Below are positions 52,978 to 57,342 of a DNA stretch of 64,000 nucleotides, piece by piece. The position numbers and the translations under genes are program-made. Each line of letters opens with the position of its first letter. Position 1 is the first letter of the stretch. The stretch lies in assembly GCA_030550515.1 (NCBI GenBank), contig JAUQPE010000023.1, positions 1 through 64,000 of the forward strand, in the 5' to 3' direction. The notes beneath the pieces are model-generated. The model searched no databases, was not told where the DNA came from, and saw only the letters and a list, made by a program, of their open reading frames with translations. The stretch comes from Thermotogota bacterium (GTDB lineage: Bacteria; Thermotogota; Thermotogae; Thermotogales; Thermotogaceae).

Positions 52978-52997
52978 AAGGGGGCGAAAGCCCCCTT
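52978..52997. terminator. Bidirectional hairpin between phoA and pheA
   Basis: An 8-bp stem AAGGGGGC/GCCCCCTT with a GAAA loop. The tail is better on the minus strand (TTTGCTTTTG), so it mainly ends the pheA transcript and may also stop phoA. Confidence 0.7.
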
Positions 52998-54667
52998 CAT
53001 TCGTACACGCTGAGTTCTTCCACCTCATCGAAGACACCTATGACCTTGTAGAAAGTCGTCACTTTGTCCAGTTCTCTCAGGTCTTCCTCTCCAAGTGGTG
53101 CCTCCACTTCTACGAAGAATATGTAGTCACCCAAGAAAGTCCTGGCAGGCCTCGATTCGAGCTTTCGTAGGTTGATTCCCCTACTTGCAAACACATCCAA
53201 GACCGCCTTGAGGGCACCTGGCCTGTCTTTCACTCCGAAGAACAGCGAAGTGAAACGCCCCTCCATCTTACCGGTCTTCTTCCTGATCAAGTAGAACCGC
53301 GTTATGTTTTTGTCCTTCAGGTCTTGAATACCTTTCCTCAACACGAACAAACCGTGGAGCCTGGCGGCGTTTTCGGATAGGATGGCGGCCGATTCGTCGT
53401 CCAGAAGCCTTACCGCATCACTTGTGGAAGAAGTGTAACGGATGTCCGCGTGGGGAAGGTAGTTGTTCAGAAAGCCCAAACACTGCGATATGGCCTGTGG
53501 GTGTGAGTAAACACGCTTTATCTCTTTGAGGTCCATCTTCCTCTTCGCGGCGAGGCAGTGAGCGACTTCCAGCTTGGACTCGCCGAACACTTCCACCTCG
53601 TGACTGAGGAGCGCGTCCAAAACGGGTAGCACCGTTCCGTACGTGGAGTTCTCGATCGGCACAATCCCGTAGTCCGTCTCACCCGATTCCACCGCTTTTA
53701 TGATCTCATCCGTGGTGTTACAGTATCTAAGCGGAATCCTGGATCCGACGAGCTTCACAGCCATCTCATCGCTGAAGCTCCCAGCCGGTCCCAACACGGC
53801 CACCGTCTTCGAAATTTTCAGGACACGATACTCCTCTTCCTTAGCCAACCTCATGATCTCCTCGAAGATATTCCTCACGCGGGTGGGGATCAAAGAGGAC
53901 CTGTCCAACAACTCTTTCATCTTCTCTTCCTCGACATCGGGAAGATCGATCGGGGAATCCTCTCTCTTCTTCTCGAGAGCGATCTTCTTTGCAAGATCTA
54001 CTCGTTCTTTCAAGAGGTCCAGGATTAGAAAGTCGATCACCCTTATCTTCTGCCTCATCTCGAACAGATTCGAAGGCTCCAACGCCAGTTTGCCGAACTC
54101 TCCCCAAAGCAACGCTCTGTCCGCACACACCGGTTCCTTCGGTGTTTCCGGCAAGTCTTTCAGAGCATGTCTACCCAACTCCCACAGGCGTTCCTTTATC
54201 CCTTTGGAACGCACAAACGGGAAAACACTCGTTCCGAGCATGGAATCGTCAACGAGAGAACCCGCACAGAACGAGACCGCCAACCTCTTCAAGAGTTCCC
54301 CGTACTCTTCCCAACCGATCCTTTCCAGTAGCATGCCTTCGCTTCTCAGGACGTCCAAAAACAACCTTTCCCTTTCTCCGTCCGTGGATTCTGATAAGAC
54401 CAACACCTTGGAGAGCGCGGGTTCCTTGTACAAGAAGACGATCAAACTCAGCAAATGAGAAGTTTTTCCTCTGTAGAACGGGACAGAAACGTCTTTCAGC
54501 AAACTCAAATCCACCACCAGCTTTCCGAAGAGCTCGCCGTCGACGAGTTCGTCCGTGACGAGGACGTCGCAACTCCTCAAGTCGTCGACGATCTCCACTT
54601 TTCTGCTCCTGAAAATCTCTGCAACCTTTTTGATCGAGTGGCTTTCGCCAAAGAAAAACAGGCGCAA
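52997..54667 (-). CDS. pheA: Chorismate mutase-prephenate dehydratase with extra N-terminal domain
   Basis: A 556-residue protein of phenylalanine synthesis. Residues 202-283 are an AroQ chorismate mutase (MRQKIRVIDFLILDLLKERV). Residues 288-465 are prephenate dehydratase (VLGPAGSFSDE, IVPIENSTYG, TRF at 456-458). Residues 473-552 are an ACT domain with GALK and ESRP (504-507) for phenylalanine feedback. Residues 1-200 are a non-standard extension resembling a decayed dehydrogenase, in the place TyrA holds in the archaeal TyrA-AroQ-PheA fusion. The start is TTG 54667, 9 nt after GGAGG. It has a perfect -10 at 54698-54703. Confidence 0.93.
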   Translation of the reverse strand: MRLFFFGESHSIKKVAEIFRSRKVEIVDDLRSCDVLVTDELVDGELFGKLVVDLSLLKDVSVPFYRGKTSHLLSLIVFLYKEPALSKVLVLSESTDGERERLFLDVLRSEGMLLERIGWEEYGELLKRLAVSFCAGSLVDDSMLGTSVFPFVRSKGIKERLWELGRHALKDLPETPKEPVCADRALLWGEFGKLALEPSNLFEMRQKIRVIDFLILDLLKERVDLAKKIALEKKREDSPIDLPDVEEEKMKELLDRSSLIPTRVRNIFEEIMRLAKEEEYRVLKISKTVAVLGPAGSFSDEMAVKLVGSRIPLRYCNTTDEIIKAVESGETDYGIVPIENSTYGTVLPVLDALLSHEVEVFGESKLEVAHCLAAKRKMDLKEIKRVYSHPQAISQCLGFLNNYLPHADIRYTSSTSDAVRLLDDESAAILSENAARLHGLFVLRKGIQDLKDKNITRFYLIRKKTGKMEGRFTSLFFGVKDRPGALKAVLDVFASRGINLRKLESRPARTFLGDYIFFVEVEAPLGEEDLRELDKVTTFYKVIGVFDEVEELSVYE

Positions 54668-54730: not shown

Positions 54731-54758
54731 TTTTCACCACTTCGCTGTGTGTTATAAT
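54731..54758 (+). promoter_or_regulatory. Promoter of the orphan P-loop gene
   Basis: TTTTCA (54731-54736), a 16-bp spacer and a perfect TATAAT (54753-54758). Initiation is near 54765, about 32 nt before the start codon. Confidence 0.7.
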
Positions 54759-54796
54759 ACATCTCAAGTACTGAGGACGCTGGAAGGGGTGAGAAG

Positions 54797-56668
54797 ATGA
54801 ACAGCCTCATCACAGAAAAGTTTATACTACTGCCGGAAGTCTTACAAATCTTGGAGAATGCGCCTGAGGTGATCATACCGAAGGACAGGCAGGAAATATT
54901 GGATTTGGCGGTAGATGGAAAGGATTTCTTCGAGGTGAAGTACGAAGTACCAGGGAAAGGAACGGTGTTGGAAGCTACCGTAACGAAGTGTAAGAACGGC
55001 TTGGTGATAAATTATGTTGAACCGTACATGCGCAGAAGGGACCCGGACACGCTGGTCGTTGGAGACGACAAAGAAACGGACAAACCACGGTTCAAAGAGA
55101 GGTTCGGGATGGAATTTGAACCGGTGAGGCGCGAAACATTCGAGTGGCTCAAGGAACAACCGTTGCTCCTCGTGCCGTTCATGGCTGGTGGGTACGATTA
55201 CGGGTATCCCGCGCTCTTGGTGGCACCGAAGAACGCCGCGTTCTTTGCTGGGGCTCTCGCCGACCTTCAGTTCTTCATCCCCTCAGAGAAAATACCAGAG
55301 AATTTCAGACCAAGACTTTACATGTTCCTCGCCCCGGTTTTCAGACACATCTACTTTGGAGGAAAACAGGTTGTGGTTCACTACCGAACGGAGAACCACT
55401 ACGAGATCTTCTCCTACAACCTCTACCCTGGCCCGAGTGCCAAAAAAGGTGTGTACGGATTCCTCCTCTACGTTGGGGAAAAAGAGAAATGGGTGACCGC
55501 CCACGCCTCCGCTGTGAAGGTGATCACACCTTACGAGAACGAGCTCGTCATCATGCACGAGGGCGCTAGCGGTGGTGGAAAGAGCGAGATGCTCGAGGAG
55601 ATCCATAGGGAACCCGATGGGAGGATCTTGGTCGCGGAGAACATAAAGACCGGCGAGAAGTTTTACCTCGATCTGAAGGAAACTTGTAAGCTTCAACCGA
55701 TAGCGGACGACATGTTCATGTGTCATCCGCAACTGAAAAGGGGAAAAAAGATCGTTGCGAAAGACGCAGAAAATGGATGGTTCGTACGCGTCGACCACAT
55801 CACCAAGTACGGAGACGCTCCAGATCTGGAAAGGATCACCATTCATCCGCCCGAACCCCTGATCTTTCTGAACCTCTACGCCGTACCTGGAGGGGTTGCC
55901 CTCATTTGGGACCACATCGAAGATTCACCAGGGGTGAGATGCCCAAACCCAAGGGTCATCCTTCCCAAGAGAGTGCTTCCAAACGTGATAAACCATCCCG
56001 TGGAGGTGGACGTCAGGAGTTTCGGTGTCAGGACTCCCCCGTGTCTCAAGGAAAGTCCCACGTACGGAATAGTGGGGCTCATCCAAATACTCCCGCCGGC
56101 TTTGGCGTGGCTCTGGCGCCTTGTGGCCCCCAGAGGACACGACAACCCAAGTATCGTCGCGACCAAGGGCATGACGAGTGAAGGTGTGGGTTCTTTCTGG
56201 CCGTTCGCGTCTGGAAAGATGGTAAGGCTCGCGAACATACTCCTCGAGCAGATCATTGACACTCCAGGTACAAGGTACATCCTCGTTCCGAACCAATACG
56301 TGGGGGCTTACAGGGTTGGTTTCATGCCTGAGTGGCTTGCGAGGGAATACCTCTCCAGAAGGGGTGGGGTGAAGTTCAAACCGGACCAGCTGGTACCAGC
56401 CAGGTGTGCCTTGCTAGGTTTTTCGCTGAAGGAGATGAAGATAAACGGTATCAACATACCGAAGGAACTTCTGCAACCACAACTTCAACCCGAGGTTGGA
56501 GAAGAAGCCTACGACAAAGGTGCAGAGATGTTGAAAGATTTCTTCAAACGCGAGCTCAGGAAGTTCCTCACAGACGAGCTGAACCCAGTCGGCAGAGAGA
56601 TCATCCAATGTTGCTTGGACGACGGGAAACTCGAGGATTACTTGAGAATAATTCCGATGAACTTTTAA
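54797..56668 (+). CDS. Large orphan protein with HPr-kinase/PEPCK-like P-loop (DUF4914-like)
   Basis: A 623-residue soluble protein I cannot assign to a characterised enzyme; it may match DUF4914. The P-loop GASGGGKSE (256-264) follows ELVIMHE and precedes PIADDMFM, the same order as the Walker A and ADD segments of HPr kinase, whose catalytic core is PEP-carboxykinase-like. Further conserved-looking blocks are LYAVPGGVALIWDHIED, PTYGIVGLIQILPPALAW, TSEGVGSFWPFASGKM and ILVPNQYVGAYRVGFMPEW. It has its own promoter and terminator, and so is monocistronic. It is not a standard GTP- or ATP-PEPCK, since their usual motifs are absent. A nucleotide-dependent kinase or carboxykinase is inferred. Confidence 0.7.
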   Translation: MNSLITEKFILLPEVLQILENAPEVIIPKDRQEILDLAVDGKDFFEVKYEVPGKGTVLEATVTKCKNGLVINYVEPYMRRRDPDTLVVGDDKETDKPRFKERFGMEFEPVRRETFEWLKEQPLLLVPFMAGGYDYGYPALLVAPKNAAFFAGALADLQFFIPSEKIPENFRPRLYMFLAPVFRHIYFGGKQVVVHYRTENHYEIFSYNLYPGPSAKKGVYGFLLYVGEKEKWVTAHASAVKVITPYENELVIMHEGASGGGKSEMLEEIHREPDGRILVAENIKTGEKFYLDLKETCKLQPIADDMFMCHPQLKRGKKIVAKDAENGWFVRVDHITKYGDAPDLERITIHPPEPLIFLNLYAVPGGVALIWDHIEDSPGVRCPNPRVILPKRVLPNVINHPVEVDVRSFGVRTPPCLKESPTYGIVGLIQILPPALAWLWRLVAPRGHDNPSIVATKGMTSEGVGSFWPFASGKMVRLANILLEQIIDTPGTRYILVPNQYVGAYRVGFMPEWLAREYLSRRGGVKFKPDQLVPARCALLGFSLKEMKINGINIPKELLQPQLQPEVGEEAYDKGAEMLKDFFKRELRKFLTDELNPVGREIIQCCLDDGKLEDYLRIIPMNF

Positions 56669-56696
56669 AGCAAGGGGCGTCGCTGCCCCTTGCTTT
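56667..56696. terminator. Bidirectional terminator hairpin
   Basis: A perfect 12-bp stem AAAGCAAGGGGC/GCCCCTTGCTTT with a six-base loop lies between two convergent genes. It includes the stop region of the LUD gene. T tails are short on both strands. Confidence 0.75.
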
Positions 56697-57342
56697 ACAA
56701 ACCTAAATCCTCGATAACAAGGATTATCTTGAACCTACCGGGCCATCTCACACCCGTCTCTACCACTACAAAGTAGTTGCAGATCCTTTGTGTCGAAGAA
56801 CAGTCCTCGCACCATCCCGTCACCGTACAGGGCGTCGTCAAGTTCAACCGTTTCGCGTTCATGGGGGATATGAACTTCAACCTTTCCCGTGCTTCCTCAA
56901 GATCCTTGACTATTTTGTTGACGCTCGCTATCAAGATCACGTTACGTGGTCCAAAGATCACCGCGGCAACCCTGTTACCGTTCCCATCCAGGAAAACCAA
57001 CCTCCCATCTTCCGTTATCGCGTTCACACCGCTCAAGAAGTAGTCCACCGAGAAACTCTTCCTGAATATCTCTTCCATTTCCTCTCGGCTCTTCGCGGCG
57101 TACCTATCCAGGAAGTTGTACCTTCCACTCCTCAAAAGGTCCAAAACGCCTGCGTCCATAAGACTCAGAGAGCCACCGACAGCAACCGATGACCCTTCTG
57201 GTATCAACTCGACCAACTTCTCCACCACTTCTTTTCGCTCTTTCACGATCCAAATCTCATGTTTTCGTTTTCGGAGGTTCTCCGCCACCTTCTCCGCCAC
57301 CTTCTCTTTCTTCCACGTCCAAAGTTCCTCTCTGAGTCCCAT
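56695..57342 (-). CDS. LUD-domain protein (DUF162)
   Basis: A 215-residue protein of the LutC/YkgG-like LUD family: PEGSSVAVGGSLSLMDAGVLDLL, DYFLSGVNAITEDGRLVFLDGNGNRVAAVIFGP, and a C-terminal cysteine group CTVTGWCEDCSSTQRIC. Related proteins join lactate oxidation complexes, but LutA and LutB are absent here. The cysteine cluster hints at metal or iron-sulphur binding. The frame is open 55 codons upstream into the origin region, but ATG 57342 after GGAGGTGAT is the start. Confidence 0.88.
   Translation of the reverse strand: MGLREELWTWKKEKVAEKVAENLRKRKHEIWIVKERKEVVEKLVELIPEGSSVAVGGSLSLMDAGVLDLLRSGRYNFLDRYAAKSREEMEEIFRKSFSVDYFLSGVNAITEDGRLVFLDGNGNRVAAVIFGPRNVILIASVNKIVKDLEEARERLKFISPMNAKRLNLTTPCTVTGWCEDCSSTQRICNYFVVVETGVRWPGRFKIILVIEDLGL

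Follow-up and report, generated by a model that had tools for sequence, protein, structure and literature searches.

The DUF4914 family, one member of which is encoded in the 64,000-nucleotide window of Thermotogota DNA analyzed here, probably represents a divergent lineage of PEP carboxykinase (PEPCK), most likely a working enzyme that interconverts oxaloacetate and PEP. The protein was predicted to have the PEPCK fold, the residues mapped from PEPCK are retained, and in thermophiles like Thermotoga the family occurs in genomes where recognised PEPCKs are missing; DUF4914 therefore probably does the job of PEPCK. The chances are about even that it constitutes an unrecognised type of PEPCK which fills the step between PEP and oxaloacetate in Thermotoga and in many thermophilic Clostridia without the known types, possibly with an unusual phosphate donor. 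Enzymes at the PEP-pyruvate-oxaloacetate node get read from genomes via family models, and if this proposal is true a central reaction is absent from the metabolic models for Thermotoga and for many members of the Thermoanaerobacterales.

The gene and its family

The open reading frame at positions 54797-56668 (plus strand), which encodes 623 residues, is real. It was identified as a DUF4914 gene by its match to PF16260, and its product was assigned to the PEPCK superfamily by the PEPCK fold predicted for it. The start codon is ATG and is preceded by GGAAGGGGTGAG, a ribosome-binding-site-like sequence read directly 5' of the ATG (54784-54795, plus strand; coordinates ±1-2 bases). A promoter-like site, TTTTCA-16-TATAAT with a TG ahead of the -10, is located at 54731-54758 on the plus strand. 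As a consensus match only, it fits a sigma-70-like site in 10 of 12 positions, and shuffled copies of the region contained 1.2 such sites on average. A hairpin was found just past the stop codon, where this gene and the next one converge (56666-56697, plus strand), with a folding energy of -23.3 kcal/mol (z -5.8), and this is a possible terminator shared by the two genes. The sequence-only reading had described both promoter and terminator signals as good. This was borne out by the sigma-70-like site and the strength of the hairpin, but not by the T-tract, which is short and weak, nor by the terminator scan, which did not list the hairpin. The flanking genes, pheA and a gene for a LUD-domain protein, are each on the minus strand. 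The gene therefore stands alone, and it is plausible that it is transcribed singly, as had been proposed. The neighboring pheA (52997-54667, minus strand) combines chorismate mutase, prephenate dehydratase and ACT, and the N-terminal approximately 200 residues of PheA matched no Pfam family at E ≤ 0.01.

The protein had been regarded as an orphan. It was instead found to belong to a broad family, as hmmscan matched residues 13-619, i.e., the full length, to PF16260 (DUF4914) with 1059.1 bits against a curated cut-off of 25.7. DUF4914 was the only Pfam family matched at E ≤ 1, with PF01293, PF00821 and Hpr_kinase all absent, and a scan of the protein against NCBIfam gave zero matches. The view that it is not a known PEPCK thus holds with respect to sequence families, neither PF01293 nor PF00821 being matched. 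In a single scan, 25 relatives sharing 54-64% identity were found among GTDB genomes; they came from Clostridia, spirochaetes, Chitinispirillum and Bacteroidales. The family was also present in Thermotoga maritima, which was among the control genomes. DUF4914 is found in Thermotoga and in most Thermoanaerobacterales, and its occurrence is patchy in Clostridia, spirochaetes, Chitinispirillum and Bacteroidales. In the literature searched, no paper mentioned DUF4914, and the presumed locus tag TM0156 likewise gave nothing. DUF4914 is an established family name for an uncharacterised protein; a metabolic role, as suggested from the sequence, is likely, and no functional model names the enzyme. As far as our tools show, and Pfam clan status aside, neither the completeness of the active site nor the complementarity in gene content has so far been described.

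Predicted fold and active-site residues

An AlphaFold model based on an alignment of 26 sequences had a pLDDT of 89.9 and a pTM of 0.89, with the lowest confidence at residues 258-261 within the P-loop. The sequence-only reading had proposed a fold comparison to PEPCK and HPr kinase, with an unrelated fold counting against it. This refuting outcome did not occur when the model was compared to the PDB by Foldseek: the 50 matches listed were ATP- and GTP-PEPCKs only; the best among those listed had E 1.4e-23 and TM-scores of 0.64 (query) and 0.74 (target) in an alignment of the whole chain. With 623 residues the protein is about the size of GTP-PEPCK. Since it has both the length and the fold of PEPCK, it cannot be viewed as an HPr kinase doubled in size, and the observation that it is twice as long is correct relative to HPr kinase only; compared to PEPCK its length is the same.

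Sequence searches of the PDB with the single protein and with a profile gave no significant match, and the relatedness therefore rests on comparisons between profiles and between folds. Between the DUF4914 profile and that of five canonical ATP-PEPCKs, 480 columns could be aligned, with a probability of 93.8% and E 1.8e-7. In controls, E was at least 0.13 with reversed profiles and 3e-4 for the top-scoring of 106 unrelated neighbor proteins. The closest profile match was to the class II family described below (E 9e-11). In a tree of 498 columns the six PEPCK-type families formed separate long branches, with DUF4914 adjoining class II on the ATP-type side; the identity between families is 14-24% and the branching order is unreliable. 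The identity of DUF4914 to known PEPCKs is about 14-18%. We consider it almost certain that DUF4914 belongs to the PEPCK superfamily.

The active site was mapped by alignment to E. coli PckA (all coordinates on the plus strand). In the invariant segment R79-P83 (RRRDP, 55031-55045), R81 and P83 correspond to the substrate-binding R65 of PckA and to its P67, respectively, and Y210-G218 (YPGPSAKKG, 55424-55450) corresponds to Y207-x-G209-x-x-K212-K213. H236 (55502-55504), invariant in 37 proteins from six families, matches the metal ligand H232. K262 of the P-loop GASGGGKSE (residues 256-264, 55562-55588) matches K254, D304 and D305 of PIADDM (residues 301-306, 55697-55714) match D268 and D269, and R386 of NPR (residues 384-386, 55946-55954) matches R333. 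R81-x-P83 aligned with R65-x-P67, and K217 with K213, in the profile alignment as well as in the joint alignment of the 37 proteins. The DD pair was mapped with the joint alignment; in the pairwise comparison of profiles a gap falls at this point because of an insertion after the P-loop in DUF4914.

The P-loop and PIADDM, the two motifs first noticed in the sequence, are both real. Among 26 family members (at least 54% identity), G256, A257, S258, G259, G261, K262, S263 and E264 were invariant, as were P301, D304, D305 and M306, and the motifs are therefore not chance patterns. The proposal of a nucleotide site of the PEPCK/HPr kinase type was supported. HPr kinase had been taken as the nearest model; PEPCK is closer, as the KKG, the metal-ligand His, NxR and the R65-type Arg, which the sequence-only reading left out of account, are all present. 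The entire mapped PEPCK active site is invariant in DUF4914 (R81, Y210, K216/K217, H236, K262, D304/D305, N384 and R386), and Y210, G212, K216, H236, S258, G261, K262, D304, D305, E325, N384, R386 and F470 were kept in all 37 proteins of the joint alignment. In E. coli PckA, R65, Y207 and R333 are substrate contacts, the Mn ligands are K213, H232 and D269, and K254 and D268 serve Mg-ATP. We infer by analogy that the corresponding residues of DUF4914 have these same roles. Judged from the sequence, the catalytic set of the superfamily, i.e., P-loop Lys, metal Lys/His/Asp, NxR and substrate Arg/Tyr, is complete in DUF4914.

DUF4914 and other PEPCK-type proteins across genomes

We surveyed 103 Thermotogota genomes for DUF4914, GTP-PEPCK, PF01293-type PEPCK and class II. 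DUF4914 was found in 12 genomes from five genera and three families, and GTP-PEPCK in none of the 103. PF01293-type proteins (E < 1e-9; canonical PEPCKs, those of the PRK09344 type and "class I" PEPCK-like proteins taken together) were present in 63 of the 91 genomes without DUF4914 but in none of the 12 with it (Fisher p 3.7e-6). For class II the corresponding numbers were 81 of 91 and 0 of 12, leaving out three more matches that were cross-hits to class I (Fisher p 4e-10; both raw p-values are too small because of shared ancestry, and the safer count is the three families carrying DUF4914). At least one other PEPCK-superfamily protein was found in 90 of the 91 genomes without DUF4914 and none was detected in the 12 with it. 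The lone genome with neither DUF4914 nor another of the surveyed PEPCK types was G057 (90% complete). Counted by genus, another PEPCK member occurred in 33/33 genera without DUF4914 and in 0/5 genera with it.

Class II is a second uncharacterised PEPCK-like family, unnamed and of approximately 585 aa (GDSGAGKSE...IDDM...NAR; L053:508-2223, plus strand, also L050-L052 and L054-L057), with weak similarity to PF01293, and it was never found beside DUF4914 in one Thermotogota genome. Class I proteins (approximately 550 aa; GLSGSGKST...HDDA...NGR; L042-L049) are divergent PF01293 relatives that are common in Thermotogota and score far under the NCBIfam cut-offs for PEPCK.

DUF4914 was present in 19 of 24 Thermoanaerobacterales genomes. 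All five genomes lacking it had a canonical ATP-PEPCK, while 12 of the 19 carrying it had no intact one (Fisher p 0.019); ten of these had no PF01293 match and two had a truncated gene, and the gene was intact in the remaining seven. The truncated genes, in G131 and G132, end inside the P-loop, one with further breaks (L064:1659-2233 and L065:1242-1940, both minus strand). GTP-PEPCK was found in only two Thermoanaerobacterales genomes, both among the five without DUF4914. It looks as if PEPCK is becoming dispensable in the Thermoanaerobacterales that carry DUF4914. T. saccharolyticum NTOU1 has DUF4914 and zero matches to PF01293 or PF00821; an annotated PEPCK, Tsac_2170, is listed in a paper on this species for the strain used there.

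The 22 other genomes with DUF4914, several of which are metagenome bins, included four with an intact canonical ATP-PEPCK, two with GTP-PEPCK and three with class I. This co-occurrence rules out a strict exclusion between DUF4914 and PEPCK as a universal rule. Where two PEPCK types co-occur, each may work in its own direction; alternatively, the substrate of DUF4914 may be a different one there.

Proposed reaction, alternatives and gene neighborhoods

For the reaction, direction and donor of DUF4914 we infer the following scheme. A divalent metal would be held by K217, H236 and D305, and oxaloacetate or PEP would be bound by that metal together with R81, Y210 and R386. A Mg-nucleotide or other phosphate donor would sit at the P-loop (K262) and D304, phosphate would move between the donor and enolpyruvate, and CO2 would be released or captured. 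DUF4914 would then be the only PEPCK of Thermotoga and of many Thermoanaerobacterales, and its link between PEP and oxaloacetate would serve gluconeogenesis or anaplerosis.

DUF4914 has in common with ATP-PEPCK (PckA, EC 4.1.1.49, PF01293) the full-length two-domain fold, the GxSGxGK P-loop, Y-x-G..KK, the His metal ligand, DD, NxR and the R65-type Arg. It differs by an identity of only approximately 18%, the lack of a PF01293 match, some 80-100 additional residues, the insertion between P-loop and DD, and a distinct C-terminal part. With GTP-PEPCK (EC 4.1.1.32, PF00821) it has the fold, the length (approximately 620 aa) and the catalytic residues in common, but the identity is approximately 13.5%, the P-loop is GASGGGKS and not of the PSACGKT type, and PF00821 is not matched. 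HPr kinase/phosphorylase has the same order of P-loop and DD in approximately 310 aa, half the length of DUF4914, and is not known to have the PEPCK substrate residues. PPi-PEPCK is much longer, approximately 1100 aa. Class II has KK, His, NxR, IDDM and the P-loop GDSGAGKSE in common with DUF4914, and differs by having 18% identity to it and by lacking the C-terminal part. If DUF4914 is a PEPCK, PPi-PEPCK (EC 4.1.1.38) carries out the same reaction, and is set apart by being described as evolutionarily unrelated to the ATP and GTP enzymes (PMC8100219).

It is possible, though rather unlikely, that DUF4914 is a PEPCK-fold kinase or carboxykinase for another oxo-acid or phosphorylated acid, with the conserved residues binding a related carboxylate and phosphate. 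The identity of less than 20% to any characterised PEPCK, the presence of canonical PEPCK in several DUF4914 genomes and the large insertion between P-loop and DD are consistent with this, as is a nearest profile match, class II, that is equally uncharacterised. However, every mapped substrate and metal residue is kept, and a gene content complementary to PEPCK in two phyla is unexpected for an unrelated substrate. A dead or purely regulatory PEPCK-fold sensor of PEP, oxaloacetate or nucleotide is very improbable, as 26 proteins spread over several phyla show no variation in any part of the catalytic set and pseudoenzymes do not evolve in this way. Although GxSGxGKSE and DD look like HPr kinase, an HPr-kinase-like protein kinase/phosphorylase is likewise very improbable, given the absence of a Hpr_kinase match in Pfam at E ≤ 1, a list of 50 fold matches that are all PEPCK, and PEPCK-type residues in a protein of PEPCK length.

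No conserved operon was found around DUF4914, the neighbors varying among the clades examined, and in Thermotogota beyond the Thermotoga group the surroundings differ. In four genomes that are unrelated to one another, a small protein of the MpsC family is encoded 5' of DUF4914 and in the same orientation (L003:5202-5561, L007:4894-5268, L009:5458-5892 and L020:4983-5927; the first two by PF10057, the others by similarity). Deletion of mpsC was without effect in S. aureus, and MpsC is reported to be outside the MpsAB bicarbonate transporter (PMC6689103); MpsC as a CO2 link to DUF4914 was therefore dropped. Neighbors seen in single genomes, on the opposite strand, were pyruvate:ferredoxin oxidoreductase, class III fructose-bisphosphatase and malic enzyme, the names being read from the sequences.
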